Origin: Saururus chinensis
Taxonomy: Eukaryota > Streptophyta > Magnoliopsida > Piperales > Saururaceae
Reading direction: 5' to 3'
Length of the DNA: 64,000 bases
NCBI GenBank assembly: GCA_035235625.1
Contig: CP141149.1
Location: forward strand, 16,867,893 to 16,931,892
Shown here: positions 7,337 to 63,133 of the stretch, piece by piece
Position numbering within the stretch: the stretch's first letter is position 1
Layout: each line of letters starts with the position of its first letter
Translations under genes and position numbers: made by a program
The notes under the pieces: model-generated
What the model was told of the DNA's origin: nothing
The model's database searches: none
Seen by the model: only the letters and a program-made list of their open reading frames with translations

Positions 7337-7728
7337 CAGACTTTCAGGATAGAAGCAATGGGTCTTCCAGAGTCTCTCTCAATTTGATCACTTGCCTATT
7401 GACAGAATGAAAGCTCTAGATTATGACTATTAACTATGCTAACGAAGATGCAATAAACTACTGGCATAGAGGAATATAGCATTTTCCAAACCGATGGAAC
7501 CCACCTGTCAAACGTAGCCCCACTTTTGTGCTTAGCGTACCAAATTGATGTGTCTTGATACCATGAATAGATGAGCATTTTTGTCATCCCATATTTTAGC
7601 TAGCCTACCCCACTTTGTGTTAAGAAGGGAGGGCTCGCTAAAACAAGAGGTGGGTGACTTCTCACCCCTCTTTTATATTGAGACGTTGTCAAAAAAATTT
7701 TGTGTTCTACATTGACCCAACAACTAAC

Positions 7729-26760: not shown

Positions 26761-26942
26761 TCATTGTACATTCATGTGGATTGTATTGGTCTTATTTGGT
26801 CATTGTACATTTGATTTAGTTTACATACATCTAGACATTTTTATTTAACATAGCAATTAAGTTTTATTTTCTTGTTTTATCTCATTTACTTTTTATGTAC
26901 ACTTAAATATGAGACAAGGTTAGGACAATGAGTGGTAACATG

Positions 26943-27009
<67 letters not shown>

Positions 27010-28800
27010 CTGTGTATGTGTAATATTTGTTACATATAGTACTCAAACTAGTGGATTAATTGCATTGTGATACATAGTAGAGAATGCTCGCATATGAGGA
27101 CATAATTGCCTTGATTCTTGCAATTATGAACCTTTGTACGAGTATAAATTTGCTACATAAAGTTAGAAGAGTATTGCTATTTTTAAAACATTATGCACAT
27201 ATGAAGGTTGTCATTTCAAATTTCACTATTACCCACCTTGTTATTTTTTTTATAAAATATTTTCTCAAATTTTGTTTAATTGAGCTAAGTAGGATATTTT
27301 GTTTCTAAAGCTCAATTGAGAAGTTGTGTCAAGCGGGATTATGTTGGGTTTGTTTGCATTTGAAACATAAAGTGACCTAACTATTTCAATTGTCACAGTT
27401 TTTGGCTTTTAAAACTGTATGAGTAATGGGCTTGAGTTCTAGATACCCATTAAGCTTTAGTTTTAGTAATAAATCTTGACCGTTGCTTGACCCTTTAATG
27501 GATGATTAGGATTTTAAGGTTCTTAACAATAATATCCTACTTTAGTTATAAATACATCATTAGTCATCCTAATTCAGATATTACACAAAAAATAATTTCA
27601 GCCAAGTCTAAACCCATTGTGAGCTTAGGCAGACGATTAGTAAAGTTTGTAGAAGAAAAGCTTGGGTTTTGTTCTAATGGCTACAGGTGAGTCTTCAATC
27701 TCCTATGGTTTATTTTAACACCCACCCACCCCTATGGCCCCATTTGTGATTTAACACATAACCACCTAAATTACATTAGTGAACCAATGGTATCCCAATT
27801 TTATCATGCTTATATTCAAATATAGTTAAAATGATAAAAAAAATGCCATTCTTTCAAGTATGGGAGTAGGTGCTACAGGAGTTGTGATCAGCGGGTGAAG
27901 GTTGGCACATATATTAAAGTAAGGACTTCACAACAAATCCGATACCATACATAAAGTGTGTGTGCATATATGTGCAGTTGATTTATCATGATAGACTACC
28001 AATAAAGCGTCACAAGCTCATCACAACTCGTGCCACCCTGTATTAAGTGACTTTCGGGTCCCAAAAAGTCTTGCCCAGTTGAGAGGATTTGTTGGGTTAA
28101 TATCATTTTCCATACCAAATGCCTTAATTCCATCTCACTTATTGTATATGGAGGTATGATCTAGGCACTAGTATCTTAGTAGTTGTTGCTACGGATATCA
28201 GTGCTCTCTACAGTTTGATCATGTGATGCCCGGAAATGTTCGGCTTCTCAGTTTTTTTTGTTTTCTTTCTCGCAAATCCGCTTCTCACTTGCTCTTTCTG
28301 TTCGGTGGACAGTTTTATCTATTAAATCAAGGTTAAAATGAATTTATCGACAATGATTTTCTATATAAATTAGCACCTCTTGGTTCATTTGTCTTGCTTG
28401 CCCATGAAGAAGGCCTTGTGAACTCCTCTATTCGACTGCATATGAAGAACCCAAAAGGAAGTGTCTTACCAGGTACCATGTGGTGATGCTAAGCATTGAC
28501 CAAATATGAATATCAGATTCGAATTTGATCACGCAGGTCATTAATGGGTGCCCAATGGGCTTGGGTATATAGTATCAGCCACACAAGAAAAAGAAGTACA
28601 AAATCAACGTAGACTGCACAAATATCGGTACTTGTCATACTACATAAATGGCCAAAAGAGAGGAAGCTTCTTGGCAACTGCTGATTCCGAACTGTAATCC
28701 ATTCTTCTTTCACATGACCCAGTCTCACCCTTGTCTCTAGCCACAGGGATGATAAAGACCGTAAGAAGCTGGCCTTGCTTAGTTTGGAAGCTAGCTCTTC
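26761..28800. other. AT-rich intergenic/retroelement remnant with an (AT)n microsatellite
   Basis: The (AT)n tract is at 26946-27010 with one G interruption. The rest has no convincing gene. A minus-strand frame at 28513-28728 has a hydrophobic stretch but no recognised motif. The 27340-28150 segment (TGTTGGGTTTG..) may be a further LTR remnant; its borders were not found. Confidence 0.4.
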
Positions 28801-33965: not shown

Positions 33966-35189
33966 CTATGCTCCCATTGACTTAAACTTTCCCATATATA
34001 TCATTGTGATGGCATGATGTAGCCTATTACATATAAAATGTTGAGTTTTTGTCATAAAAGACCAATTGATTGACTATAAAAAATTTAATGTTATTTTTTA
34101 CATCATATATCTCTTTTAATAAACTCTTTTTTATGTTTTATCATGGAAAAGAAATGTGTTAAGCTTGTTGCAAGTGACCGGATCTAAATTTGATAGGGTA
34201 TGCATATTTAAGAGGTGGGTGAGGTGTAAAATTCTTGCCTACCTCTGTCTTATAGGCACTGACCCATACTCCCTCCCTCAAATATTAATAGTTACACGTG
34301 ATAAAATAGTGGGTTTTATTGAATGGTTGAACCCGCATCTAAGAGAGAGGAAAATAAGCTTATGATACTATTTTTTAAGTAACTAACTAATTAAATTGAA
34401 CAAACTGAAGCTATTAATATGTTATGGCCCTAATTTACTTTCTTAAATTAGTTTCATTCCTAAATTAGTTAGGATTTGATGTCTTTATTAAGTTGAAATT
34501 AGATTAGGAGTAGTTTCCTTATTCTAGTAGGATTAATTTACAATTCATATATTGATTGTAATGCATATCGCATATTAGTCATGAAACAATTTAATTCAGA
34601 AATTAGTTCAACTTAATTTGCACTCTCTACTCTTCTTCTCTAAGCCCCCCCCCCCCCCCCCGGCCCCCCACCGTAGTTTACAACATTGGTAATTGAGGGA
34701 GTTCATGCTCCCTATGCCCTCCCACCCTCTTGATCTCCACTATGACCGGCTAGCATAAAAAAAGTCTCGATTTGGCATTGGACAAGTCCATGGCATGGAT
34801 CCATCAACACTCCAAAAGGTGCCCGTCTCATAGTCTTCTCTCGTACGACTTCACTTACAAATTACTTAATTGGAGACGAGAATAGAAGAGGCGGGATAGG
34901 AGATACCAGCGTTAAGTGCTCCTTGGGGGCCCTTGACCAGAAGTCCAACTCGTTCCATCAATAGATCAATCGCCGCTTCGATCAACTTTTGTTGTTCATC
35001 CAGCTAGTGCACACTTCACCTCCACCGGAATCAGACTCTTTCCCTCCTCTGATAGTAGTCAACTTCTCCCCAATGTCCACCAAACCTTCTACTCTTCATG
35101 CCCCTTGGTGCATCTAGCCTCTGGTGGCTCCAAGTGATTGGAGCTATAAGATACAATAATTTTTGTTTCCAATTGTTTTTCTTGTTGGT
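33966..35189. other. Intergenic/retroelement remnant with a C-homopolymer run
   Basis: A 16-C run lies at about 34647-34662, followed by GGCCCCCC. The 34425-34640 segment resembles the AT-rich end of a Copia-type LTR, but no partner repeat was found. I see no gene. Confidence 0.35.
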
Positions 35190-35726
35190 GGATGGGCATG
35201 CTAAAATTTAAGGAGTTTGACCCTTTAACCATATTAGTTAAATAACTCTCTAAATAGGTTGAATTTATTGTTGAAACTAAAGCCTTGGGTAAAAATATTG
35301 TTTGGGGTCATAATATGGTTAGAAACTAGACATAAAGAGCTTTGAAACGCCACTAAGAATGCGCAAATTGGAGTTCAGATGAGTGAGATATAACTAATTG
35401 AAGTTGTACTTAATGCGTTGGGCTTATTTACCCGATTTAAACCTAAAATTGGGCATTTTATTTAGCATTTTGGGCCCTTTTAAATTTAGTGATGGGAATA
35501 GGGATTTGGGGACCAATTTGGGTTGCCCAAAAGTGGTTTAGTAGCCCATGCCCTAAAGAGATTAGGAATGCTTATCCCTATCACCTATAAATATTTCATA
35601 AGGGCCTTAATGAGAAAGTTTTTGAGCTTTTTGGAAGCGGCTAAGATTTTTGGTGCCCTAGCTTCTCTCAAGGTGAGTAAATTTGAATTATTCTTTTTAA
35701 TTCCTTGAGTTTTTATAAGAAATTAA

Positions 35727-36430
35727 GGGTTCGTTTAGATTGGTGGAAAGTGGGGGAAAGGAAATGAATCGTTTTGAAATCTCAAATTTCACTATTTGGT
35801 ACATCGGGGAAATAGAAATTAGAATGGAAATTGAGAGAAAATGTGTAGAAAATTGACCTCAAAAGTTTCCACGGAACAACCCATGAAATTTGGAAGAAAA
35901 AATACATATAAGTCTTTAATAATCTTAATGTCAACTTTGTTGCTACTACTACCACCACCGTTGCCTCCATCACTGTCGTTGCTGCACTACTACTACTACC
36001 ATCGCCACCCCTTCCACCACCACCTCCGCAACCACTATCACCGCTGCTACCATCATCACTGCTGCCGCCTCCACCACCACAGCCTCTACAGTCACCGTCA
36101 CTATTGCCACTGCCACCTCTACCACCACCGCCACTACCACCACTAGCGTCGACACCGTTGCCACCATTCATCGCCACCACCACTCCACTACCACCATTTC
36201 CAATTGCCACAGTTCCACCACCACCATCGCTGCAACCACTACCACCCACACTGCCATAGCTAACTCCACCACTACGACCATTGGTGGATTCATGTTTCAA
36301 TTTTCTATAGCAACATTGGGTACAACCAAATAGTAGAAAATTTAAAGAATCTCCTAGTTTCTCTTTTACCCGGATTCACTTTCACTTTCTCTTTCCCTTT
36401 CTCCTGATTTCCACTAATCCAAATAGACCC
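35727..36430. mobile_element. PIF/Harbinger-type MITE copy 1 (704 bp) with an internal (CCA)n tract
   Basis: The left end GGGTTCGTTTAGATTGGTGG matches the inverted right end (GGGTCTATTTGGATTAGTGG on the minus strand), and TAA flanks both ends (35724-35726 and 36431-36433). The terminal repeat and the TAA duplication are Tourist/PIF-Harbinger marks. The centre, 35940-36280, is a long imperfect CCA/CCG/CTA trinucleotide tract. It lies inside the Gypsy 5' LTR and touches the assembly gap. Confidence 0.8.
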
Positions 36431-36433
36431 TAA

Positions 36434-37433
36434 NNNNNNNNNNNNNNNNNNNNNNNNNNNNNNNNNNNNNNNNNNNNNNNNNNNNNNNNNNNNNNNNNNN
36501 NNNNNNNNNNNNNNNNNNNNNNNNNNNNNNNNNNNNNNNNNNNNNNNNNNNNNNNNNNNNNNNNNNNNNNNNNNNNNNNNNNNNNNNNNNNNNNNNNNNN
36601 NNNNNNNNNNNNNNNNNNNNNNNNNNNNNNNNNNNNNNNNNNNNNNNNNNNNNNNNNNNNNNNNNNNNNNNNNNNNNNNNNNNNNNNNNNNNNNNNNNNN
36701 NNNNNNNNNNNNNNNNNNNNNNNNNNNNNNNNNNNNNNNNNNNNNNNNNNNNNNNNNNNNNNNNNNNNNNNNNNNNNNNNNNNNNNNNNNNNNNNNNNNN
36801 NNNNNNNNNNNNNNNNNNNNNNNNNNNNNNNNNNNNNNNNNNNNNNNNNNNNNNNNNNNNNNNNNNNNNNNNNNNNNNNNNNNNNNNNNNNNNNNNNNNN
36901 NNNNNNNNNNNNNNNNNNNNNNNNNNNNNNNNNNNNNNNNNNNNNNNNNNNNNNNNNNNNNNNNNNNNNNNNNNNNNNNNNNNNNNNNNNNNNNNNNNNN
37001 NNNNNNNNNNNNNNNNNNNNNNNNNNNNNNNNNNNNNNNNNNNNNNNNNNNNNNNNNNNNNNNNNNNNNNNNNNNNNNNNNNNNNNNNNNNNNNNNNNNN
37101 NNNNNNNNNNNNNNNNNNNNNNNNNNNNNNNNNNNNNNNNNNNNNNNNNNNNNNNNNNNNNNNNNNNNNNNNNNNNNNNNNNNNNNNNNNNNNNNNNNNN
37201 NNNNNNNNNNNNNNNNNNNNNNNNNNNNNNNNNNNNNNNNNNNNNNNNNNNNNNNNNNNNNNNNNNNNNNNNNNNNNNNNNNNNNNNNNNNNNNNNNNNN
37301 NNNNNNNNNNNNNNNNNNNNNNNNNNNNNNNNNNNNNNNNNNNNNNNNNNNNNNNNNNNNNNNNNNNNNNNNNNNNNNNNNNNNNNNNNNNNNNNNNNNN
37401 NNNNNNNNNNNNNNNNNNNNNNNNNNNNNNNNN
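36434..37433. other. Assembly gap, exactly 1000 N
   Basis: This is a placeholder-size scaffold gap. It begins one base after the TAA flank of MITE copy 1 and ends inside MITE copy 2, about 85 bp from where that copy's left end should be. Confidence 0.98.
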
Positions 37434-37933
37434 AGAAACTAGAGTGGAAATTGAGAGAAAAGGGGCAGAAAATTGGCCCCAAAAGTTTTCACGACTCAAC
37501 CCATGAATTTTGGAAGAAAATATGCATCTAAGTCTTTAATATTCCAAATGTCAACTCGGTCGCCACTACTACCACCACCGTTGTCGCCACCACCATGCCA
37601 CTACCACCGCCACCTCCACCACTGCCACCACCATCACTACCTCCATTGCTGTCGTTGATGCACTACTGCTACTACCATTGCTACCCTTTCCACCACCACC
37701 TCTGCAACCACTGTCGACGATGCTACCATCGTCACTATAGTCACCGTCACAACCACCATTGCCACTCCCACCCCTACCACCACTGTCGTCACCGCTACCA
37801 CCACTAATGTTGACATTGTTGCCACCATTCATTGCCGCCACCACTATTTCCAATTGCCATAATTTCACCACCACCATCGCTGCCGCCACTACCACCCACA
37901 CCACCATGGTTGTAAGATCTCTAAACCCTAACA

Positions 37934-40900
37934 TGTCACACCCCGGCACCACCCAACCCTAGCCAAACTCGGTCCAAGGGCGACAGAAAATTGAAAGAGA
38001 TTAAAGGATTGCAGAAGACTTAGCCCCTTATACGGGCAAATTAAATGGCGGAGTTACGCACCACATAACCTTTAAACAAGAGTAATAAGTATAACGAAAG
38101 AGAATTTTAACTCTGAATTAGCCACAAATCTTATACCCACATACTTATAATCCTGAGCCAACAAACATGGCTCGAATCAAAGTCTCAAACAAATCCAAAA
38201 CATAATATAAAACACAAATCTGAAACAAGAACCACCATATATACATGATGTTCTATCATCATAACAGAGTAATTAGAAAAATGTAACAACGTCTAGGGGC
38301 ATCTACACCTAATCCCATGCTCTGCCCGACCATTCCTCAAACAAAGGGTCCTGCCCGACTGCATGTCGAACTATGCAGCCCCAAAATAAAAGCACATAAA
38401 AGTGGGGTGAGTAAAACTCAATAATGTTTTGAATGCAGCGACATTAATCGAGAAAACCCTCACGACATGGCAACAAAGCAATTCAAATTCATAATGGACA
38501 TGGTATACCCTTTTCTGATCATTCCCTTGCTAAACCCCTATTTATCCATAAACATAAGAGCTATCATGCATATGACACACCTATCAAGGTCAAGACATAA
38601 ATGATCAAGTTATAACCTAACATCCATCCTGCATATGTAATAGTTCACATCTAATCCAATCAAGTATAATGACATGCATAATCCGCCTGAGAAGTATTTC
38701 TAACATACTTTTTGATCATACATTCATATTACATAAACTTGCATAATAGTGTCTCATTCACACATTTTTACATAATGCAGATTCATATAATTCATTCATA
38801 AATCATTCACTTTGCACGATAAGTGTCTCAATCACACTGTTCTAAATTATGCATAATAAATCACATCCACATGTGTCACATAATCTCAAATATCCTTCCA
38901 CAACCTGTGTAATCTGGACATAATATTATTTCATACACATGCATTATCAACAAATGGTGAATGCCTCCATCAAGGAGTGAACACAATCATTGTCACAAAG
39001 GCTGAATGTAGTCTGATTTTCTAACTAGAAACCTAGGGCATTGCCCACTTTGGACACAGTCCGAATCCCTCACGGGAACTAAGAAGTAGGGGTGGTCAGC
39101 CCCTCTGCTCGCCCAGGACAATCCACACGGGAAGTCCAAATTCCCAAAGGGAACCTAGAGCAGGTCTACTCGCCCAAGACAATTCTGGCCAAGAATGTCC
39201 AAATTCTCACATAGGGAACCTAGAGCAATGTGTTCGCCCATAACATCTCTGTGGTGGGGAGAGTTCAAATTCCCACATAAGGAACCTAGAACACGTGGTA
39301 GCCGGTGCACAAAGGCGTACCACTATGGATGCTCAGTGTCTAGATGTGACTATCTCAATAAATAAATCTCAACCGTATTAACAATTTAAAGCGACTCAAC
39401 TCAACTCAGATGGACTCAACCTGGGGAGTATACATGTTCCACACAGGAACTCAAATCGAAATCATGTCTTTTCGGACCAGCGAAGTTTCGATTAAGCCAA
39501 TGATTGATTAATCCGGCATGCAATCTCACATCATTGCATATAATCAATCAATCACAGCTAAATATCGGTAAAATCTCATTCATGAAGTCCATTTCATGAT
39601 GCATGAAATCATGATACATCCGTGAGCAAGATCTACATGAATTCCAACCCATGGAATGTAATCCCATTGATGCACTGAAATAATATTCAATAAAATGTTT
39701 TCAAATTTCTATTTGCAATCCTATTTTGTGTTAATTCATTACCAATTTGGGCTATTTATGTTTTGAATAGGTTAGTTGGACCTTAATTGAGTTTACATGT
39801 CTAAACAGGCTTCAACAGGATTCAACTGGAATATGAAGTGAAGCCCAACTACCCAAAGCTATTTAAAAGTCAAGAATGGGCTCCTAATGGTCTAAACATG
39901 CATGGAATGGTCGAACACAACCTTGTGGACCCATTTGATTTGAGATTTGTATGAATAGAACTAAATTATGAAAGAAGTTGATTCGGACAGATTGACACAG
40001 CCTTAGTATTTCGATCATATCTTTTTATGTATAATTCGAATTGATACGATTCTGGTGGCAATGGAAAGAAGACTTTCGTGGCTACAAGTGTTATTTTAGG
40101 AAGAAATTCCAAATTCCGAAGATATATGGGTCCAATCAGGCAATCAATCAGGATGAAATCTGGAGATATGATTTGACTTTCCCCTTTGAAGCAACCCTTT
40201 CTTTTCATATAAATAGAGGGGTGGACGTGATAGATGGGTCATTCTCTCCTCTTTGGAGCTCTCTTCTCCTATTTTCTTCTCTCATTTTGCAATTTTGTTT
40301 TTAGTTTCATTGTAATGGCATTCTAAAACTCTCAAGCTAAGGCTAAGAATGAAGCTTGTACTTGATGTTTAATGGATACTTTGATTCAAGTAAGTTCTTT
40401 ATCATTTTAAATTGATGTTTCATATTTAAGGAGTTTATAATCTATATAATTATTTGATTCAGCGTTGACGAAAGACACGCCGAATGCTTATAATTCCCTG
40501 TGATTATACACTTAATACTTTCACATAGTAAACAATCAATTACTATTGTTCTATTTCAAAGTTCTTTAAAAGATACATTTTCCGATTGAGACAAATTTTC
40601 ATTTGATCTTAATTGAGTTATCATTTGAATGAAGTATACATTAGAGATTTATTACAAGTGGATTTTTGATGCCTTAGCACTTTCTCTTTGAATTGTCTCT
40701 TCATAATAGTTTTCTGTGTCACACAAGGCTTTCCCTGTGGATCGACCTTGTTTACTATAGTTGACAAGTAAAAAAAAAGAAATCTGAACTAGACTCCTTC
40801 ATAGTCTTAGTTTGGACGTAACACCCATCAGTCCCCTCATGCATCATAATCGAATCACAAATAACCATGATTTTATAGTAAATTCCCCACACATATGTGT

Positions 40901-42605
40901 TCATGCATTTCCTAAGCACATGACCAATGCTTTGATATAATCTCATAAGGCAATACACACATGCTTAAATATATTCAAATCATGATTACCAATTGAAATA
41001 TAGGATAAAATCTACCATAAACCATAAATCTGTTCATGTAAAATCAAATGCTTAACTCCTACAAGCATAATTATTCTACACATTAAGCTATAACAATATA
41101 ACATCATTCACCCACAATTCATTCTCATTATATGATTACATATCATCTCATTGTCATATACTAACTTTGCTGGAAACATGGTTAGAACATAAGAACTTCA
41201 TCCACCATAAATTTACAATAATCAATGCTAAACATGTATAACCAGAATCATGTAGTTCAGCATAATCCTTAAGCATGGTTCATAAATCCCAACCTATATA
41301 ACATATCCTTCCAATAGTTTATTCTAACTCAAAACACTCCAAATAAACATTTGAACTTTAGTTGGAAATTAAAAATACCAAAATAAACATAAGAAATAAA
41401 TTTCCCAAAATCTCCTATGTAGCTAATCGATCGACCTAGAAGGCCATTCAATCGGTTAGCCTGAAAATTAGAAAATTTGTTGTGTAGCTGATTGATTGGC
41501 CTGGCAGGCCGTTCGAACGGCTCGATCGATTGCCAACAAACAGTTTGATCCTTCTTCTTCATTTAAAAATTCAAAACCAAAACACCATTGTTAAACCATA
41601 AAACCTTCATCCCAAGCCTCATACACTATCAAAATTCAATCAAACATTCCAGAAAGCTAATTGGTCTCATTCCAAGGTAAAACCCCAAGAAATCAAGGCA
41701 ATAGATTAACATTTCATAAATCTACCATTAAAGCCTTAATCAAGAAAACTCATTCAAATAAAACCTATAAAAATCGAGATTTTCACCATAACAAGGTTGA
41801 GATTTGAAAACTCATTACATCTTCACTTGATTTGAGTTGGATTTACTCTTTAATCACCACCAAAACCTTCCAAAAGTAAGATTTTTATGTTAAAACACAC
41901 CTAAACTCGATTTAGACTTGAAAATCATGAAGCAAACCCTAGATCTAGAGCTTAGGAGACATAAAAAAGAAAATTTGAAGGTTAGGGTTTAAAATAGAAA
42001 AGTAAAACAGTGATTAAATGGTTTAAAATCGGATTTAATCAATGGAGGAAGATAGATTTAAGAGAGTATTAGGAAAAGCCCTAATGATTAAGTATGAATT
42101 AGGGAAAACATACCTCTAATCACTTCCTCTTTGTGCCTAAATGGGGATTAGGCTCTAAACATCCTTGCACAGCCTATTCCCAATTTGGAAATGGCTCAAC
42201 CTCTTTCCTTTTATATGAAGGGTTGGGCTATACCTAATTGAAATTTGAAGTAAGAATATAATTTTTAACTAAAATTAGGAAATTTGGCAATTTAACCCAA
42301 AATTAGGACTAAAACAATTTTGAAAAATTTTATAATGACTTCCTTTGTTGTCTGGGATGTTTTGCCAGATTCGACTATGGGGCCGACAAGGGGTCCCGCC
42401 AAACCCTAAATTTTGAAAAATATGTACAAATTCTAAAATGGTTTAGATTCACTTAAAACTCATAAATATGAAGTTATTTTTGTTTAAAACCTTGGAAATC
42501 ACCTTTATTTCCGAAAATCATCAAAATTAATTAGAAACGGCTTAAACCACATAAAAGCAATTAAACCAAATGAATTTAAATCGGTTCAAGATTAGGGATC
42601 TTACA
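37934..42605 (-). mobile_element. Solo LTR A, same family as LTR B, inverted, inserted at base 23 of LTR B
   Basis: Read on the minus strand it starts TGTAAGATCCCTAATC at 42605 and ends CCGGGGTGTGACA at 37934. The flanks are TAACA (37929-37933) and TAACC (42606-42610). Without LTR C and its duplication it is about 3.5 kb. It aligns with LTR B along its whole length in inverse orientation, for example GAGCCATGT..GGCTCAGGATT..AAGT.TGTGGGTAT at both outer ends. Confidence 0.8.
39668..40823 (+). mobile_element. Solo LTR C (1156 bp) nested in LTR A, perfect 5-bp TSD
   Basis: It starts TGATGCACTGAAATAATATT and ends GGACGTAACA. CCCAT flanks both sides (39663-39667 and 40824-40828). A TATA-like CATATAAATAGAGG lies at 40206-40219. 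A GTGGATCGACCTTGTTTA block near the 3' end resembles the insert at 49760-52033 (TTTGGATCAACCTTGTTTAG), so the two may be one family (Tat/Athila-like by style). Confidence 0.88.
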
Positions 42606-44802
42606 TAACCAGTCTGTTTTAATTTTATTCAGTGATTATTGTGGTTTAATGTTAACTTTGATCGGTTTTGACTTATTTTTAAAATTAAAATGGTTAAAAA
42701 AGGTTTTAGATCAAATTTTCTTCACCAAGATAGTTTTTATTATGTTAATATAGTCAATAGGAGATTTTTTGTATTTTTTGTAATTTTGACTATTTTACCC
42801 AAAAAGCTAGGGGACGGGACCCGCCATGGGCCCCACATTCAAAATTAAGATTATAGGTCTCAAATGACCCTAACAACTTCTTAAGATAATACTTAAATAT
42901 TTTAAAATTTTTAGAAATCGATTTGTGCTTAAAATAAGCAAGTTTTTCATTTTTAGTGTAAAACTCTATTTATACCCCACATATCTATTAGTTTTACCCT
43001 AAAGCCTTCTATAAATAAAAAAACTTAGCCACTTTCCAAATTGAGAAGGGCTCGAAACTTGGAGCTTAGGAGTCCTAATCCCCATTTCCCAAGAAAGAAA
43101 TGTGATTAAGGTAAGGATTAGCCAATCTTTCACTAATTTCTTAGGGTTTCTTCTAAACTTTTTAAACCCCTTCTTTTGACAAGGCTTAATCTCAATTTCT
43201 ACCTAAAAAGCTACTGATTTGAAACCCTTATGAAAGGAACTTCATTTTTGAACTCACTAAACCCTAGATCTATAATTTTTTAAGAGATTTAGGTATTTTA
43301 AATCGGATTTATGAAGGTATTAGCAAAAACCCTATGTTGGGTAGGATTTGAAGCTATTGGAGGAGTGATTTCAAGTCAAGAAGCTTGTTGAAGGTAAGTG
43401 TTTTCATCATAAATGTGGCTGTGATTTCATATTTGAGTTTTGATGGAGTTTGAAGTGGATTTCCATGGATTTGAGCTTTAATAAAAAATTTAGTAAAGCT
43501 TAATCTTTCTTATGATTTCTTTGTGTTTTAGGTTGTAAATGACTAGATTTACTATTTTCTAAGCATGAATTTCATTATTATGAAGTTTGGGAGTGAGATT
43601 TGAAGGTTTATGTTGTTTATGTGAAGTTTAGGTTTTGAATTCAAAATGGTGAAGATGAACTAGATATTTCAATTATGGCGATCGAATGGCCATGCAGGCT
43701 GTCGAACAGCCCTACAGGGCGTTCGAACACCAACATAGCATTTCGGCTATTTTTGCTATTTTGCTCATTTTTGAGTTTTTATCCTTAAGTACCATTTCTT
43801 ATGTTCATAATAAGTAATATATGCTAGATAAAGCTATTGGAAGGGTATGAATTTAATGATGGAAGCTATGATTAATGTTTAAGTATTATGTGAAGTTCAT
43901 GTTATTCGATTAAGCATATGATAAATCCTTGTCTTGAACCCATGTTGAATGATTCATATCTTAAGTATGATTCCAGCAAGGTTATAGCACGATAATAGAT
44001 TTGTATGTCTGCACATATAATGATTAAATTATGGGTGAATGATGGTGTCATGTTTAGCTCTAAGTGTAGTAATGATTATGCTTACTTGAGTCTAACATGA
44101 GATTGCACTTGATTCGAATTGTATTTTTCGATGATTTTCAATCATGATTTCAGTAAGAAGTCATGATTAAATGTTAAATGACATGTGTGTAGTATGTTAA
44201 TAGGATGTTTATAATGCATGTCCATATACTTAGTATGTAATGATTCTACCATGTACACACACATGAGGGGGGGTAAATATGGTGATTACCAATGTTTATG
44301 ATTAGAAATGATGCATGCATGGCTAATGGGGAGAATGTTTGATGAATTAGAATTCATATAGTTATTGCTCACGTATGTACCATGTTATATGACATCATGA
44401 GACAGATTTACGAATAAGATTTTATCGAGATTAGTCATGTTGATCAATTGGATGCAATTGTGTGATATTGTTTGTCAGGTTAATCGATCGAAGGCTTCTC
44501 GATTCAGTTTTACTTCCGAAAGGACTAGGTTTTACGTCCCTTGAGGACGGGTTTTCCTCCTCGGGTTGAGAAAAGCGGCAATGCTATAAGGAGATAAAAT
44601 TATTGGGGCTATCTAGACCTTAAGAATCTAGGCTAGTGTAGCCAAGTGCACCGGCTTACTAGGGGGTATTCTTCCCCATTAGGGAACTTATCCTAACTAT
44701 GTAATTCCTTCAGACTTTCCAATTGGGGATTGTTTGGAGTGAGCAAAGACTGTTTATGCTTCGACTGATTAAGCAAAGTTATTTTATCGACTTACATGGT
44801 TA

Positions 44803-45224
44803 TGATTGTGTGTTAGAAACACTTGATATGCAGGTTGATGGATTATGATTATGCATGATGTGATTGTGTGGTAGAGACACTTCTCATGCAGTCTAAATGT
44901 GATGAATATGCATGATGTGATTGTGTGTTAGAGACACTTCTCATGCAGGCTATATGTGATGAATATGCATGATGTGATTGTGTGTTAGAAACATTCATGA
45001 TGTGATTGTATGTTAAAGACACTTCTCATGCAGGCTATATGTGATGATTATGCATGATACGATTGTGTGTTAGAGACATTTCTCATGCAGGCTATATGTG
45101 ATGATTATGCATGATGTGATTGTGTATTAGAGACACTTCTCATGTAAGTTATATGTGATAATTATGCATGATGGGATGGTGTGATTAGACACACTTCTCA
45201 TGCAGGTTATATGTGATAACTAGT
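44803..45224 (+). repeat. 57-bp minisatellite, ~7 units, in LTR B
   Basis: Units contain GCATGATGTGATTGTGTGTT, AGAGACACTTCTCATGCAGG and CTATATGTGATGA. One unit near 44990-45005 is shortened. The matching part of LTR A (38690-38900) has only about three diverged units. Confidence 0.85.
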
Positions 45225-46079
45225 CATGTCAAGAATACTATGCTTGGAATACTTTCATGCAAGGTATTTGTTTATGTTTAAATATAGTTATGGTAAGAGA
45301 AATAATTAGAAACATGATATTATGTGATATATAGATCTAATAGACCATGAATATGTGTTATGGTTATTTTTTGATTTACTATTATCATACCCAAAACCTT
45401 ACTGAGTTTTACTCAACACTCTTTCTTTCTGTGTTTTGTTTTGGGGTTGCATGACATTACATGCAGTTAACCAAGATCCTCTGTATGAAGAACGGTCAGG
45501 GAGAGCATAGGCGTAGGCATGGATGCCTTTGGACCATGTTATGTTTTCTGATCTATGCTGTTAAGATTATAGAACATCATGTATGGTGTTTCTTATTTCA
45601 GGCTTGTGTATATCTTATGTTTTTAGATCTATTTCAAACTTTCTAATTTGAGCCATGTGTTTAGGCTCAGGATTTTAAGTTTGTGGGTATATGATTTATG
45701 GACTAGTTCAAAGTCCTCTTTCATTCTCCTTATTTCTCTTGCACAAAGGTTTAAAGGTGCACAACTCCGTATGTGTGAATGCCCGCTAGAAGAGTTAAAG
45801 TCTTCCACTTGTTAAACCAACCAACTCTGTCGCCCCCGTGTGCTTTGACCGTCCCTTGGACCGGGTTTGGCTTGGGTCGGGCGGGTGCGAAAGCATGACA
45901 ATGGCTAACTCCACCACTTCCACCATTGGTGGATTCAAGTTTCAATTTTCTATAGCAACATTGAGTGTAACCAAACAGTACAAAATTTTAAGGCATCTCC
46001 TAATTTCTCTTTCACCCGGATTCACTTTCACTTTCTCCTTCCCTTTCTCCTGGTTTCCACTAATCCAAATAGACCCTAA

Positions 46080-48055
46080 AAGTCTTTCATACCTAATCCT
46101 CATTCTTATGCCTCTTTCTATTGAAATTTCCAAATATCTCTTAATTGATTCAATTTGTAGAACCCTAAATCTTAGTTTTTTTTATTTAAAACCTTGTGAT
46201 TCATGCGTAGAATTCATTAGACACAAGGAAGTACTTGAAATTACATGTTTATCCTACTTGTGAGCTTCTAGTTGGTAGAGATCATGATTTTTGCTAAGGG
46301 CTAATGGAAAACTTTAATTTTTGGAGTAGGGATCTTTTGATTTAGGAAGGTTGGAAATATTTTTCTGCCCTAGAGGTAAGGGGTTTTTGTTTTGAGAGTA
46401 ATTTATTACATTAACACCTTGTTTAATGATGTTAATCATGTTTTTTGATGAAGAATGACTATATGACTTGATTCTTCTCTTTGAGAGATTTTGATGTTGT
46501 TTGCATATGCTTTTGGATAAGTTTGATAGGGGTTTTCATAATTAATGGTTTAGAATTGATTCCAAGAAGAATTATGATGAATTGATGATTAATCGCAATG
46601 ATTTTAATTCAAAAATTGCAATTTCAATAATTTCCATGAATTGGTGAATTTTTTTTAAAAACCCTACTGGGTGATCGATCGACATAATGTACTGAGACCA
46701 ACACCATGTTGCTAATCGATCGGTATGACATACTATGTTCGTAATAGTGTTGTCAATTGATTGGCCCACTTGGCGATCAATTGGCTACACTATTGTGATC
46801 GACACAATGTTGACAATTGATTGCCCTGGCCTGGTGATCGATTGCGAACATGGTATAACCAAATTTTTATTTGTTTTTTTTCTTTTGAGCCCGATTGATT
46901 GGTCTAAAGGATTTGATCAAAGGGCACTCTTATGAATGGATCATGTGCATATTCTACAAAATTAACCTCATGTTTGAACACTCTTTTGCACATAATAGGT
47001 TCACTATGATTGATAAACATTAGAGTTATTCATGCAACCATGTATTTGATATTATCTTTATAAATTCGTGTTACATCATACATGCATCATGTCCTAGTCC
47101 ATATGATCTTATCTACTAAATTATGTCTTACATGATACAGTATGATTCCTTCGGTTTTTACATGTAACCATGCCCTATATTCCATGCATCATGAAAATGA
47201 TTTGTGAACTATGTTTAATCGTGATTAGCCAAGGATTTTTGTACTTTTTCAGGTTAGCCATATCAAGTTTAAATAAACCGATTTTTGGTCCAAAAGGTAG
47301 GGTTTTTTTGTCTAAAAAGGGGGGTTTTACCTCCCTGGGTTGATATAACTGAGATGTTTATATTATTGAAACTTCTGGACGGGTTCCAGGTTGGTCATGT
47401 TTATGTGCACCGGCTTGACCAAGGATTATTTTTAGCATCTCCGGTTTGGAATGTCAGGTTACGCATCAGATATAAGGTAATAGGTAACATGTTACATTAT
47501 TTTTAGTTACTCTAATTTCTATTATCTTGAGACAATTTTAGATGCAATTTCTGAGATTAATTACACCAATATGATTGTGTAGGACTTTTGATGCACTTTC
47601 AATATTTATGTACACTATGGTTGTGTAAGGATTTTGCTTTGAATGTTGAAGCATGTATTATGGTGTTAATGATTTTTTTTAAAAAAAACTTATTGGGTTT
47701 AATGTCACCCTTGCTTTGTTTTTGGGAATCCTTTGGGATTCCTTGTGTGATAGTGTCACGTAGGTACTCAAGATAACTTGTTTTGTGAGAATAATTGAAG
47801 GAATATTAGGAAACTTCATGGTATATTGATAGCATTTCATTTTTAGTTATAGTAGATCTCTTTCATAATTTGAGGCATATGTTATGCCACTGCATTTGGA
47901 TTTGTATAAGAGTGCTTAATTGTAGTCTAGTTTCCTTTTATATTCTTTGGATTGTTCTTAAACAAAGCGATGACTTATTGTGTATTCCTATTTAATCCAA
48001 GTATGGGTTAAAAGTTGTCGCATCCTCTCACCGGTTTGGGTCATGGGGCATGACA
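46080..48055 (+). mobile_element. 3' part of the Gypsy 5' LTR
   Basis: It continues the LTR interrupted at 35726. Blocks such as GTGCACCGGCTT near 47405 are shared with LTR B near 44650. A cluster of GATCGATCG / ATTGATTGGCC words occurs at 46670-46910. The end GCATGACA at 48048-48055 is followed by the primer-binding site. No genes. Confidence 0.7.
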
Positions 48056-49759
48056 ATTTAGTGGTATTAGAGTCAGTCTTTGTTTAAAAGGATAAGAGAA
48101 TAATATAAAATGAATATCCCCACTAATGGATAATATCTAATGGAGAACAAAAGAATAAGGGATATGAGGAGAGGGATAATAAAAGAATTAGACACGGCTA
48201 GCAACTTTAGTACCATTGTTTATTGTGTTTTGGCTTGCTTTTGGTGCTATTTTATTGATTTCTTTTGGGTGTTAGATCATGAGACTCAACACCTAGATGT
48301 TGTGTAGATGGCGGATTGTAGTCAACTAGGGGCATCAAGCAGCCAAACTAGTAGGGATCCCCATGTAGATGATGTATTTTCATCCATTGAGGAATTGACT
48401 CAAGTGGTGTTTGCTCAACAACAGGGCAGGTAACACAATGGTGGATAGGAGCAACTGACCTTGGAGGGCTTCAAGAAGTTGAATCCTCTTAGCTTCAAGG
48501 GTGGAGTGGATCCTACTAAGGAGAACAACTAGAGGCTACATATAAAGAATATTTTTAGTGCAAGAAGATGCTTAGAGGAGGAGAAGATTTGCCTTGTTGT
48601 GTTCACTTTTGAGGGTGATGATCAACGATAGTGGCATCCTATGAAGAGGCAGTAATTCCATGACCAAGTGGACATTCCTTGGAGGGGATTTTTAGTTGCT
48701 TTCAATGACAAGTAATTTCCATTGCATGTGCATGAAGATAAGAATAAAGAATTTCTGAACTTAAAGCAATGATCCATGACTTTCATCGAATATGAGACTA
48801 AGTTTGTGGAGCTAGAACTCTTTGCCCCTCGTCTATTTGATGTTGAGTATGAAAGTGCAAGGAAGTTTGAAGACAAGCTTAAGCCTTTTTATTAGGGGTC
48901 AAGTGGTGCCTTTCAGACATGAGACTTTGGCAGTGTCATAGCAACTGACATAGTTGTTGGAAAGGAATCTGATGAGTATCATAGGAGGAAGGAGCAGCCT
49001 AAGCGGAATTGGCAATGTAATTTTTAGGGAGACCGTAATCAGAGGCCTTTTGGGAACAATGACAATCCTAGCAACAATTCAGGTAATAAAATGTCGAGCG
49101 ATTCGGGAAATAACTTTTGCTGGAACAACAATGATATAGGTTAGTTAAGGGGAACAAACAAAGGGAATCACTAGAATGATCGTACAAACTTTACATATTT
49201 CAAATGCAGGCAGCAAGGGCACTTTAGGAAGGATTGTCCTTATAATACTCAAGATGAAGCTTCAAGGCATCAACAAACTCCTCAAAACCAATGACAAAGG
49301 TAGCAAGGTGCTCAACAAAAGAATCTTGCAAATTAAGGAAGGATCTTCGCTATCACAGCTAATGAGCCAGCTAACACTATAGTAGTGGTGGAAGGTATGC
49401 TTAAAATAGCCTCCCACCATGCTAGATTATTATTTGATACTGGTTCTTCACATTCCTTTATTTTTCCTATCTTTTCTAGAGAGCTCAATATTGAGCCAAA
49501 ATTACTATTGACTCCTTTGTGTGTTTTTACCCCTTCATCGTCTCTTTGGGCGGAGGAACACCTTAAGGAACTTCCTATTGATATTGAGGGTCAAGAGTTG
49601 GTTGTTGATTTGATTATTTTGTCTATGATTAATTTTAAAGTAATTTTAGGTATGAACATAATGTCTATATATCATGGTCATGTTTATTGTTGGAAAAAGG
49701 GTAGTGTTTACTACGCTAGATCTAAAGCCTTTTGTCTTCCAGGGTATGAGATAGGTTAG

Positions 49760-52045
49760 TGATACACATAATTTTTATCTATTTTATACATCATTTTACC
49801 TTATTTGCTAGTATAGGATTAGGCTAATTTAGGGTTAATTAGGGTTTATAATGTTAAGGCAGATAGTAATTGTTTGATTTATTAATTAATTAATTTGGGC
49901 ATTATTAGTAGTTTAGACATGTATTCAAATCAAGTTGAGGTTTTATTTAAGTTTTACACGTCTCAATTATGGTCTTATTGTGCTTTGTAGGTGAATGTTG
50001 GGCAAACAACTTTCTTGATACTCAGGTCACTTAAAAAATATTTGGACACGGTTTAGACATCTCAGACAGATCGAACATTGGTACAGAGAAGAAATTGTCT
50101 AAGAGCTTGCACATGTTGAGATGTTGGAGTAATTTCATGAAGAGAAAGAGAGCAACAACCAATTTTTTTCTCACTACTTTTCCAACATCGGCAAAAGAAG
50201 AGTACAAGCTATAACAAGCCAATGAATCCAACAAAACCAAAGAAAAGAAAAGACAGAGAATAGAAAGAAATTCAACAATTTTAAAGAAAGAAAAATTAAG
50301 AGCAAACCAGAAAATTAAACTACAGAGAATAAGCCTCACATGAAAAGAAAATCATTGAGCAGAATTCCATTTTCAAGTACCTATGCCAATAGCCATATAT
50401 AATCAAGGGTATTTCCCTTTTTATTCCAACAATCAAAGAAAGATCAGAAGAGAGTAATAGGGGAGAATAATCAACGAGGAATGATCACCTCATGGCAAAC
50501 TAGACTAAAAAATCAGAGGGCAGCCACGTCCATAACTAGAGAAAACCCATAGCGGGCGACCAACAGATTTTTGCAGAGAAGAGATCTTTCCCATAGGCAT
50601 GAGAACGACCTCCTTTTCATTTATTTCCTATCTTTTAAAGCAAAGTCAAGACTTTAGAAATGAAGTAACTAGTTCTCAGCCAATGTCCAGCAAATTGCAG
50701 CATGGAACATTCAGATTTGAATTCCTATCAACAATAAAATGTCTAAAATATAACATGACGAATCAAATTAAATAAAGGAACAACAAGAGAAAGGAAAGGA
50801 TTGGGCAAGAAGAAGAAGGAAGACAAGGTAATGATTAAGCAAAGAAAATAGCCTAAATATGGATAGAATTTAGGGCTTGAATTAGAAAGAAAAAAAATAT
50901 GTCCAGCATGTTTAAATAAGAACAGAGAATTGCAGTTGATAGAAGAGAGAAGAATCATAAACCAGAAGCAAATTCATTCAATCTCATCCTCCAAAATCAT
51001 TTGAAAAATAGTTTGGAAATGAGGGAATTGAAAACCAAGCTAGAGAATGAAGAACAAGCAAGAAATTTTTTTCAATGGATACGAGTACTATAGCAGAGAA
51101 GAGAGGTTGAAGATGGTGAACAATAAATAGGTATTGTAGCAGTTCGAACATTTTAAAATTTTCTTTACTTTCTTCTAAACTTGTAAGTTTATTTCCACTT
51201 ATTTTAATAGAGATTATGGTTTTAGGTCTTAGGTTAATGAGTAGCTAAAATTTTCATCTATGGCCAAAATAAAATCTTGTTAATTTGTATGGATTAAGGA
51301 TCATGAGAGTTGATTAAATTTCTTTTATATGTGCTTCAATGTTTGATTGTTCTACTTATTTTTAATTGAAAAACTCTATTTTAGATATAAGATTAATCAT
51401 GTTCTTCTTATGATTTGAGGTGGTTTTTATTAGTTAGTTGCATAGATTTTTAACTCTTGAATTAGGGTTGGTATTGATTGTGATTTGCATATTGAGGATA
51501 AAATTATGGACTTAATCTTAATATTATTAAGCAAAGGAGAACATAATTTTTATTCTTGAAAATACGCTTAATATATTCCATAATACATGGGATTAAATTC
51601 TAATGTATTATGAGATAGTATGGAAATTGAATCAATAATCATGGTAATGACTTACAAATTAATTCGTGTGGATTCTCATGCCTTAGTAGTTTGGTTAATT
51701 GGATGTTCGAATTATTTAATATTGCTTTCTTAGTTTAAATTGATTCTCAGAGTTTTGATTCTAGTTAGTTATTAGATTTAACTTTGAATTCTATTACTTA
51801 TTTTTTTATAGTTTCAGTAACTTTACTTCTTTTATTTACTTCACTTTTCATTCTTATTTATTTTAGGGTTTTAAAAGTAGAAAATTATTTGATAATTCAT
51901 TAACTAGATTAGGGTTAGACTCAATTAGATTAAAATTTAGTTTTCTGTTTTGAAGTCTCTTTGGATCAACCTTGTTTAGCCACTTTTCTACCTTTAATTC
52001 ATGTGCTTGTGAGTAAACAAATAATATTTAACAATAAATAGTAGC
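49760..52045. mobile_element. Insertion between Gypsy protease and RT, probably a solo LTR
   Basis: It starts TGATACACATAATTTT and contains TTTGGATCAACCTTGTTTAG near its end, like LTR C. A plausible end is TTTAACA at 52033. Gypsy coding sequence stops at 49757 and resumes near 52046. The flanking duplication is not clear. Frames inside it are short and carry no domains. Confidence 0.6.
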
Positions 52046-53429
52046 AAGCTCTTGGTGTCTTCATTTAAAGCAAAGAATTGGATCAACATCGGGTGCATGA
52101 CTTTTCTTGTAAGCATTTCTAAGGAAAGGGTAGAACCAACCCCTATTGAATCTATTTCAATGGTGTCTGAATTTTCGGATGTCTTTCTAGAAGACTTACC
52201 AAGTTTACCTCCTTAGAGAGATATCAAGTTTAATATTGAACTTCATTCGGGCACTATGCCAATCTCAAAAGTAGGGCTGCCAACGGTACCCGTTTTACCA
52301 TTCTACTGTTTGTACCATTCTGTTAAGAAGTTAAATGGTATGGTTAAACTTATTCAATGGGTAAATAAGAGGATACTTTTATTCGACCGTTATCTTAATT
52401 GAAGGTAATGGAAAAAGTCTTTCCATACCCATTTATCTGTTACCCATTTATCATATTTAATATATATATATACTAATTAGTCTTAAGTGATTTAATTTCA
52501 AAAGAGATTGGCTTATGATCTTTTACAATAATCTTCATGTCATAATTCACCACAGTGATTTACTCAACGAAAGATATCATTTAAATCTAAATATTTATTT
52601 AACTACTTACAACCATTTATTATAGTTGTTACAAGCTACTACTTAGAAGATAATTTGTTATTTCTAACATTTCATATCTAACTGTATTTTTTTAATAAAA
52701 AAATATCTATTTGTAATTTATATTTTATATTTTCTTAAACTCACTTTACTTTGATGTTTCTCATTTGGTTGCTTTGTCTAATTTTTATGGTCTCATTAGG
52801 CCACAATTCATCTTTAATCATATGTGATAAAATCTTAACTAACTACATAGACACTTTGTACAATTTTTTTTTGCAATTCTCAGGTTAATTTAGATTCCAT
52901 TTTGATAACTCAAACACGTGAGTCTTTTTCTGTTTTTGATAATTAAACTTATAAAATGTTTATTTGTGCAAGGAAATAATTGGTTGGTTTGGAGTAGGAT
53001 TGCTGAATCAGCTCTATCCTACTCGAGGGCTCTATCCTACTCGAGGGTAGACTCAAGTTAGCTCAAATCAAAGCTTGAACTTGGGCTAAAAGAACCAAAC
53101 TCTTGATTGGCCTATCTTGAATAGCTTGGTTTGAGTGCTGGTTGACTTAACTTTAAATGAGTGATATCAGTGGTTTACTTTGAGATTTGGTATATGTTGG
53201 TTGGAATCATGATTATGTTACAAATTATGTTTGTATATGAGATTGCAAAATTTAGAATGATTTAATTATTGAAATAGGTTGGTATCAATAAGTTTTGAAT
53301 GACTAAATAGGTTTAAGTGAAACTTTGAATAGGTTTAAGTGAAACTTTATCTAAAATATGGTGAACTATTTTAAATTTTTTAGGTGATGATGTCATCATC
53401 CGGTCAACCAAGGTTGACTTAGCCTAACC

Positions 53430-54013
53430 CAATGTTTTAAAAACTAGCCCGGACATTGACCTAGATTGGTTGTCAGGCCAGGTTAATTGGGTTTAACCAC
53501 GGGTCAACCTAGGTTGACCTGATTTTCCCATATATTAGATTAAATAGAAAGTTAGGTACAATATTCACGTAAAATCATTATAACTTAGTTTGTAGAGCGT
53601 AAATGCTATTTTTATTACGACCTAGGTTCGAATCCCACCGTGGAGAATTTTTTTGGAGCAATGTAAAGCAGATAAATATTAAATAAAATAAAAATGTGTA
53701 TAAACAAAGTTGTTGCAACCCAATGGGTTACGCTTGTTGATGGGCTCTCACAGAATGTGAGTACGAAATCCATCTCCAATATAATTTTTTTTTGTGAGAG
53801 TGTTAAACCGGTTTGACCCAAGCAACGGGTCGATGGTTCAATTGGCCAGGTCGTGTTGACCTGGTCGGGTTAACTTAACCCGTTAAAGTAAATGAATCGG
53901 CCCAATTTATCAACTGGATCTAATTGAGCCTGGTCCAACTCGCTAGGCCAGTTTTAAAATATTGGCCTGGCCACTAATCTGGGTTAGGGTCCTGGCTAGG
54001 TTTTAATACATTG
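53430..54013. mobile_element. Foldback element (584 bp) nested in the hAT element
   Basis: The left end CAATGTTTTAAAAACTAGCCC is complementary to the right end GGCTAGGTTTTAATACATTG. The subterminal regions are rich in GGTTGACC / GGTCAACC words. No clear TSD was found. The ends resemble plant hAT MITEs of the 'CAGTGTTTTAAAA' type. Confidence 0.65.
53583..53645 (+). repeat. tRNA-like relic (A-box-like and perfect B-box sequences)
   Basis: GGTTCGAATCC at about 53630-53640 equals the RNA polymerase III B-box / T-arm consensus. TAGTTTGTAGAGCG about 35 bp upstream is a weak A-box/D-arm. The acceptor stem does not pair and the anticodon arm is not formed, so it is not a working tRNA; it may be SINE-derived. 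Confidence 0.45.
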
Positions 54014-54210
54014 CTTCAAAAAGACACTAATAGATAATGTGCATCACTACATGTAGTCTCATTCTTGCCTTTAATACATCTTTAAAGACAATTGCTATAA
54101 GAAGACAATTATTATTCTCATATTGGGATTCTTCTTAAACAGGCAGTAGATGGTTGTCTTGAAGCTAGACTCATATAATAGGAAATAATTATTGGAAAAT
54201 AAGTAGTTTT

Positions 54211-54212
54211 AT

Positions 54213-54247
<35 letters not shown>
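54211..54247. repeat. (TG)n(TA)n microsatellite
   Basis: Seven or eight TG units are followed by about ten TA units. Confidence 0.9.
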
Positions 54248-54899
54248 GCATAATATATGTATCTATTTATGTTTCATGTTTAATCTTTACAATTTATTTA
54301 CAACAACTATAAATAACAGTAGTAATGATGTTAGTTTTTTACCTTAGTAATATCTAATTAAGTAAATAAAATATATTCATTTTAGCCTTTTTGAGCATAT
54401 TTTAAAAAATATAATGGATAATGGTTATCCAATTAATCAACCGATTATTAGTGGAAGGAACAATTATGGAAGTACTTATACCGTTTACTTAATGGAACAA
54501 TTATGAATAAAAATTTAGGAAATGGTTATGGTAATGGAATAGGTTATATCGTAACCGTATCATTTTGTTGGCAACCCTACTCAAAAGCTCCTTATCATAT
54601 GGCATCAACTGAATTAAAAGAGCTTAAAATTTAGTAACATGATTTATTATTGGACCTAGTGCATATCCTTAGGGTGCACCTGTTCTCTTTGTCGTAAAGA
54701 ATGATGGTTCTCTCATACTCTGTATTGATTATTTAATCTTAAATCATGTTACAATAAAGAATAAGTATCCCTTACACCATATTGACGACTTATTTGATTA
54801 ATTGCAGCAAGTACAAGTATTCTCAGAGATTGGTTTAAGGTTGGGTTATCATTAGCTTCGTATTAGACTTGAGGATATGTCAAAGATTGCTTTCGTATT

Positions 54900-62000: not shown

Positions 62001-63133
62001 GAATCAGAGGGCAGATTCGCTATCCAAACAGCCCCTTAGTTGGTTGGAACAGAAAATTATTTAAAAAGTAAGTGTGAAGATGATTGCAGGAGACTAAAAC
62101 AGATGGATATGGTTCTCTCATTTATTGTTTGCAGGTTCGGGAATTGAATGCACTTTTACTAATAGACATTTTATTCATGTTGCAATTGCAGGTATTTCAT
62201 GTATGATGGACTGACGCATAAATGCATTGAGGATGATCATATAGTTAATGTTTTTTCCTTCTCTAAAGCATATGGGATGATGGGATGGCGAGTGGGATAT
62301 GTAAGTAGAGTTTCTTCATGTTTGCTTTCATATTATGATCTGGAAAATTCTTATTCAATACTTTTGATCTTCATTCTTGAAACACTTCTGATTTGATGAT
62401 CCATGAATTTGAAAATTAAATGTAAACCTTTATGAGTTCTTTATTGCTATCAAGAATTCTAGTACATGCGCTGTCATATGTATTGTCCCAAGTATAAGTT
62501 GGAAATCAGATTGCATATTGCATGTTGATAGGATAGTAGAACTTTCTGCTATGGTTGTTCCATGATAAAGACTAATAAAGCCTTTAGATCTCTGGGACCT
62601 CTTGTTTTGCATTGTACCCAGGTGTATGCTTGTGCCAAAAGTTTTCTTTGCTCCTTATTTTATGTATGTTGCAATGTCTGCAGATAGCATACCCTTCCAG
62701 AGCAGAGGGGCTTGGGGCTCAGCTGCTTAAAGTGCAAGATAACATACCTATCTGTGCCACCATTATAAGCCAGCGTCTGGCACTGTACTGTCTTGAAGCA
62801 GGACCTGAGTGGATAGGAGACCGTGTGAAGGACCTTGTGAGGAACAGGGAGATTCTCCGAGAGGCTCTCTCACCACTTGGTAAAGATGCTGTCAAAGGAG
62901 GTGAAGGCGCCATTTACCTCTGGGCAAGGCTTCCGGAAAAATATTCTGACGATTTTGAGGTAGTTCGCTGGCTTGTCACAAAGCATGGGGTGGTAGTTAT
63001 TCCAGGTAGAGCAAGCGGCGGGCCTGGTTGCATTCGAATATCCTTTGGGGGACTAAAAGAGGCAGAGTGTAAGGTTGCAGCAGGAAGATTGAAGAAGGGG
63101 CTTGAACAGCTTGTTAGCGAGGGGATGATTTGA
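59085..63133 (+). CDS. ISS1: PLP-dependent aromatic aminotransferase, ISS1/VAS1 type, 395 aa
   Basis: There are nine exons: 59085-59147, 59291-59338, 59751-59879, 60291-60350, 60572-60728, 61085-61197, 61276-61334, 62192-62300 and 62684-63133. All junctions are GT..AG and the 1188-nt sum is in frame. The start MGSLARLARRALETDMPVM matches the family start. Fold-type I aminotransferase marks: GVVYWQPPELAL, YGADEGLPELR, TAGANQAF, NPGNPSG (175-181), DNTYE with Asp206 (PLP ring nitrogen) and Tyr209, the Schiff-base lysine Lys235 in FSFSKAYGMMGWRVGY, and the substrate-carboxylate Arg364 in IRISFGG. Every key residue is present. In Arabidopsis, ISS1/VAS1 (At1g80360) moves the amino group of methionine to indole-3-pyruvate and acts on phenylpyruvate, tying auxin, ethylene and phenylalanine metabolism together; it is cytosolic and has no transit peptide, as here. 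Intron 7 carries a MITE. Confidence 0.95.
61411..62035. mobile_element. PIF/Harbinger-type MITE (625 bp) in intron 7 of the aminotransferase
   Basis: The left end GGGGCTGTTTGGATGGCAAA matches the inverted right end (GGGGCTGTTTGGATAGCGAA), two differences in 22 bp. TTA flanks both sides (61408-61410 and 62036-62038). It is intact-looking and does not touch the splice sites. Confidence 0.92.

Follow-up and report, generated by a model that had tools for sequence, protein, structure and literature searches.

An inverted pair of retrotransposon ends in Saururus chinensis is very probably an ordinary fossil nest of Ty3/gypsy elements, in which a host element (H) was entered by a solo LTR (B), B was entered by a second solo LTR (A) in inverse orientation, and A was entered by a third insertion (TE3). 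The analysis covered the whole 64,000-nt stretch of DNA that contains the nest, called here the window, and a genome of 516 Mb in 11 contigs was searched for related copies. The nest reading is based on the element boundaries, the target duplications, uninserted relatives of the target sites, the order of nesting, and the division of A and B into distinct families. The coordinates of the features are given in Table 1.

Table 1. Features of the nest, its host site and the adjoining LTR C (positions in the window)
Feature	Position	Strand	Details
Second H copy, without B, A, and TE3	35727-36430	+	Related uninserted site; TAA at 35724-35726 and 36431-36433
N gap	36434-37433	.	1000 N, separates the two H copies; sole N run in the window
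Host element H, portion left of B	37434-37910	+	MITE-like, PIF/Harbinger-like ends; starts where the N gap ends
Target-site duplication of B, left	37906-37910	.	ATGGT
LTR B, first ~18-23 bases	37911-37933	+	TGTAAGATC...; ends in left TAACA (37929-37933), target duplication of A
LTR A, complete, within B, inverse orientation	37934-42605	-	Own-strand ends TGTAAGATCC...GTGTGACA
TE3, TG...CA insertion inside A	39668-40823	+	Strand from a TATA-like stretch, by eye; CCCAT at 39663-39667 and 40824-40828
LTR B, rest	42606-45900	+	Ends ...GCATGACA; starts with TAACC (42606-42610), right target-duplication copy of A
Target-site duplication of B, right	45901-45905	.	ATGGC; related uninserted site is ATAGC
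Host element H, portion right of B	45901-46076	+	Includes 3' terminal inverted repeat; then TAA at 46077-46079
LTR C	46080-48055	+	Ends ...GGGGCATGACA; more distant relative of B; left limit provisional
Primer-binding-site-like motif	48062-48074	+	TGGTATTAGAGTC; two bases off initiator-Met type
Protease RVP_2, 3' of LTR C	49337-49756	+	Pfam E=2.5e-29

The first-pass annotation had placed B as an LTR split near its 5' end by the oppositely oriented A, and its coordinates proved to be exact, with the junction at 42605/42606. The target duplications that it gave, ATGGT/ATGGC around B and TAACA/TAACC around A, were also borne out. Each pair agrees at four of five positions with one mismatch; as a comparison, the frequency with which two random 5-mers from the window agree at four or five positions is about 0.02. 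LTR B is 3,313 bp in length, begins with TGTAAGATC, and has CATGACA as its final bases, whereas LTR A is 3,511 bp without TE3. In five of seven other copies of B (L030, L031, L033, L035, and L036) the sequence is continuous across the insertion point of A at B position 18/19. The match begins at positions 105 and 185 in the other two copies (L032 and L034), so that the insertion point is not covered there. A 57-nt tandem repeat array occupies 44801-45228 inside LTR B, and Tandem Repeats Finder listed none in LTR A.

Self-comparison revealed terminal direct repeats in neither A nor B. Neither contains a second LTR or an internal region, and each aligns end to end with the other. Both have the TG...CA ends and the short target duplication that characterize a solo LTR. 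The complete ends, the target duplications, the uninserted relatives of the target sites, and the lack of an internal region uphold the earlier proposal of two insertion-plus-recombination events that left nested solo LTRs, and we infer that each solo LTR formed by LTR-LTR recombination. What did not hold was the description of A as a plain LTR, because A carries TE3, an insertion of 1,156 bp with a perfect CCCAT/CCCAT duplication. TE3 is missing from all seven other copies of A (L002-L008), in which the match crosses the insertion point unbroken. It is probably another solo LTR.

The nest was built in four steps. The MITE-like element H was in place at the start, and a Ty3/gypsy-type element of family B entered it and would then have shrunk to a solo LTR through recombination of its LTRs. 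An element of the related family A was next to arrive, lying inversely to B about 20 bp inside its 5' end, and would likewise have become a solo LTR. TE3 entered A as the third element.

The inverted diagonal that a dot plot was expected to reveal was confirmed between 37934-42605 and 42606-45900 by self-comparison, nhmmer, and MAFFT. A first scan of 37000-46800 gave inverted arms at 38241-38391/45434-45584 and 38399-38431/45392-45424. Gapped self-comparison gave an inverted match of 74% between 38049-38431 and 45769-45392, with inner pieces at 39494-39647/44497-44347, 41063-41322/44083-43828, and 42111-42330/43113-42895. When A was used as the nhmmer query, B was found at E=1e-89 and 2.1e-66; when B was the query, A was found at 9e-68, 1.5e-63, and 5.1e-21. 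Aligned end to end with MAFFT after removal of TE3, A and B are 59.0% identical over ungapped columns and 53.3% over all columns. As controls, 10 dinucleotide shuffles of B gave 43.0-45.7% and the alignment of A with reverse-complemented B gave 42.5%.

Both LTRs are repetitive in the genome. With the middle piece of each as query, relatives of A were found at 39 other places at 79-88% identity (40 rows; the best 40 of 1734 candidates), and relatives of B at 39 other places at 80-87%, along with a fragment of 36 bases (41 rows; the best 40 of 2841 candidates). The overlap between the two sets of places, among these best 40 of each, was zero. Members of one LTR family are at least 80% identical by the 80-80-80 rule, and the 59.0% between A and B lies below this threshold. 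The first-pass annotation had called them sister LTRs of the same family; judged by their identity and by the non-overlapping places of their best-scored relatives, A and B are two related but distinct families. The divergence between A and B is uninformative about when A landed in B.

The inverted arms had also been expected to give a read-through transcript that folds into a very long double strand. Folding back is indeed what is predicted: the 7,990-nt RNA has a predicted MFE of -2357.9 with 1,591 cross-arm pairs, of which 1,156 lie no more than 10 nt off the inverted diagonal. With A shuffled, two control sequences had MFEs of -1846.2 and -1849.3, with 580 and 356 cross-arm pairs, of which 11 and 0 were on the diagonal. 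The double strand itself, however, is ragged. The predicted helices are short, with the longest cross-arm helix reaching 20 bp, and the longest Watson-Crick run in the A-B alignment is 13, with the best 100-column stretch being 72% identical. The two arms have no 18-, 20-, 21-, or 24-mer in common and share 15-mers at two positions. TE3 and 344 gap columns break up the arms further.

These folding data bear on the idea that the locus is a functional hairpin, in which, as has been suggested for Mu killer of maize, read-through RNA would form a long double strand and be diced into small RNAs that target both LTR families. The low predicted MFE and the many pairs on the diagonal fit this idea, and so does the recurrence of 21-mers of A (392 of 3491) and of B (378 of 3244) in seven copies of the own family of each (stretches of 3.6-3.9 kb). 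Across families, 1 of the 3491 21-mers of A occurs in seven B copies and 2 of the 3244 of B occur in seven A copies, so small RNAs cut from one arm would seldom have a match in the other family. A hairpin that feeds siRNA production has a long, near-perfect double strand, whereas the duplex predicted here is ragged and interrupted, and this weakens the silencing idea. A functional hairpin locus is very unlikely. The palindrome is best seen as a by-product of the inverse insertion of a related LTR, most probably with no function of its own.

The outer host site of the nest is H, an element of about 0.7 kb with inverted repeats (35726-35767 versus 36390-36431 in the second copy) and TAA on both sides. 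Its ends resemble those of PIF/Harbinger as described in PMC2213677, and it seems to be MITE-like. The strict motif G(N)5GTT, which that source requires, fits the 5' end of H but not the 3' end (PMC2213677). The outer flanks of B match 35814-36433, an uninserted relative in which the site reads ATAGC in a single copy, and the empty H copy is 85-91% identical to the flanks of B when simple repeats are excluded.

We compared each piece of the interrupted H with this uninserted copy and with six other H copies. The right piece matches the uninserted copy at 91% over 174 of 174 bases and the six others at 81-86% over 136-169 bases. The left piece matches the uninserted copy at 85% over 122 of 122 bases and the six others at 73-85% over 86-118 bases, with one of the six at 85%. 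The best match for both pieces is the uninserted copy left of the gap. Among the H relatives in the genome (67 rows; the best 40 of 1146 candidates scored), those of near-full length are at most 72% identical. These comparisons point to the uninserted copy as a relative of the target of B and possibly the same site.

The two H copies face one another across the 1000-N gap, one with the 8-kb insertion and one without it, and the contig left of the gap stops exactly at the TAA of H. Given this arrangement, they could represent two haplotypes of one site that the assembler failed to merge. Alternatively, they could be a local duplicate or plain relatives.

An assembly artefact, in which two unrelated LTR fragments were misjoined, gains some plausibility from the gap, which ends 477 bp left of B, and from the repeat-rich character of the region. 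However, the gap is the only N run in the window, and a misjoin would not be expected to create complete LTR termini with flanking duplications at all three levels of the nest. We consider such a misjoin extremely improbable. The chance that the structure is a single DNA transposon of the foldback type, with limits at 37911 and 45900 and inverted repeats of 3.3 kb, is negligible: two long inverted arms do lie within an outer 5-bp duplication, but the first ~20 bases of B stand alone at the left, A has a duplication of its own, separate A-like and B-like LTRs are seen elsewhere, and the arms are only 59% alike. Self-integration or inversion of one retrotransposon, with its two LTRs left face to face, can yield inverted LTR pairs, but both LTRs of one element are identical at the outset whereas A and B share 59% identity and their nearest relatives, among the best 40 scored for each, differ, which leaves this origin scarcely credible.

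To the right of the nest lies LTR C. Its relationship to B was detected by nhmmer (7.4e-10) and by a local alignment that exceeded all of 30 shuffles. The match of C with A is marginal, with an nhmmer value of 0.024 and an observed score of 577 that is below the shuffle maximum of 587. The remains of an element behind C extend over 48062-54634 and comprise the primer-binding-site-like motif, gag-like pieces, a zinc knuckle (zf-CCHC, Pfam E=0.00021), the RVP_2 protease, and pol-like frames recognized by eye. We take the initiator-Met type of primer-binding site to be TGGTATCAGAGCC. The pol-like frames at 52025-52216 and 54452-54634 are apparently split by further insertions. No Pfam match was obtained for two gag pieces or for the pol-like pieces 52025-52213, 52217-52399, and 54452-54631, and a PDB search with the protease of the C element gave no match.

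The stretch 35140-35727 was considered as the left part of LTR C. Against the 5' end of B its local-alignment score was above 60 of 60 shuffles; against that of A, 8 of 60 shuffles reached its score. An arbitrary control stretch gave a comparable result with A (1 of 60), and the claim was dropped. The copy near 15.9 kb likewise showed no clear continuity across the joint. The stretches 15947-16261 and 35313-35727 form a related, directly oriented pair (nhmmer 7.5e-27; 79% over 129 nt) and appear LTR-like by eye.

At one other place in the genome (L040), a B-family LTR is followed by TGGTATTGGAGCACC and then by a gag-like ORF. This ORF has no Pfam match but shares 64% identity with the gag-like piece behind C over 58 aa. 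Here B is found as the LTR of an element with a primer-binding site and gag, though the strict primer-binding-site pattern TGGTAT[CT]AGAG[CT] does not match there. This pattern had no occurrence in the 13 neighbourhood sequences scanned, those of A included, and no complete family-A element was identified among the neighbourhoods read. In A and C, the U5 end carries GGG at positions -8 to -10. The corresponding bases of B are G, A, and A at -8, -9, and -10, and three B-family copies (L037, L038, and L040) read GGG by eye. The elements likely belong to the Ty3/gypsy superfamily.

We read 10 neighbourhoods of other copies, six of A (19.8 kb each) and four of B (7.9 kb each), all of them drawn from the best-matching copies and not a random sample. 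In three of the 10, all of A, an LTR of the A/B lineage in the opposite orientation lies within 1.1 kb (L017+L018, L019+L020, and L021+L022). One of these, from 3325 in L017 to 685 in L018, is a second inverse nest, with a plus-strand LTR of the A/B lineage within a minus-strand A-family LTR. A fourth neighbourhood (L027+L028) has an opposite-oriented relative 6.7 kb away. No such relative was seen in two A neighbourhoods or in any of the four B neighbourhoods. In L023+L024, A-family stretches in the same orientation (7706-10663 and 12933-16318) are 2.3 kb apart and may be opposite ends of a single element that has been shortened. Other copies resemble solo LTRs with target duplications by eye, namely L027 (TTCAT/TTCAT), L037 (CATTC/CATTC), and L038 (TTTGT/TTTGC).

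Elsewhere in the window, self-inverted palindromes occur at 5217-5374 (158 nt, 80%) and 26938-27019 (82 nt, 90%). Toward the right end, 62588-63130 is a frame of a cellular gene with a Pfam match to aminotransferase class I/II (E=1.4e-10). Three other frames of the window had no Pfam match.

Nested LTR retrotransposons, termed "autoinsertions", are described for plant Ty3/gypsy lineages such as Tekay in PMC6911290, where 5-bp target duplications are the commonest, two of six dot-plotted nested pairs are in reverse orientation, and the LTRs are the least-hit region. The nest studied here is similar in that an LTR element sits in a relative and in that reverse orientation is also reported there; it differs in that both partners are solo LTRs of different families and the insertion lies in the LTR itself (PMC6911290). 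PMC4029996 gives LTR lengths of 1143-4831 bp for Del/Tekay chromoviruses. Both A and B are within this range and the GGG in A and C agrees with this group, whereas B departs from it at its U5 end, and the likeness is one of LTR length and U5 end (PMC4029996).

Mu killer of maize is a partial inverted duplication of MuDR for which a hairpin RNA formed by read-through has been proposed, and its silencing is tied to short antisense transcripts in PMC3440606. Inverted transposon copies are common to both loci. However, Mu killer is a duplication of a single gene with a silencing phenotype, whereas the arms of the A-B pair are 59% alike and are known from sequence alone (PMC3440606). Searches of an open-access collection, by titles and abstract openings and within the terms used, yielded no report in which small RNAs arise from one solo LTR lying in inverse orientation within another. 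It is highly doubtful that the inverted A-B pair is a transcribed cross-family silencing locus whose ragged hairpin yields small RNAs against two related Ty3/gypsy families together, and that inverse nesting of related families repeatedly generates loci of this kind in the genome.

Taken alone, the A-in-B locus is of little weight, and it offers a clean inverse LTR-in-LTR nest in which the order of events can be read from the DNA itself. Should transcription of such inverse nests be demonstrated, they would lend themselves to testing how much mismatch a plant hairpin tolerates while still feeding silencing.
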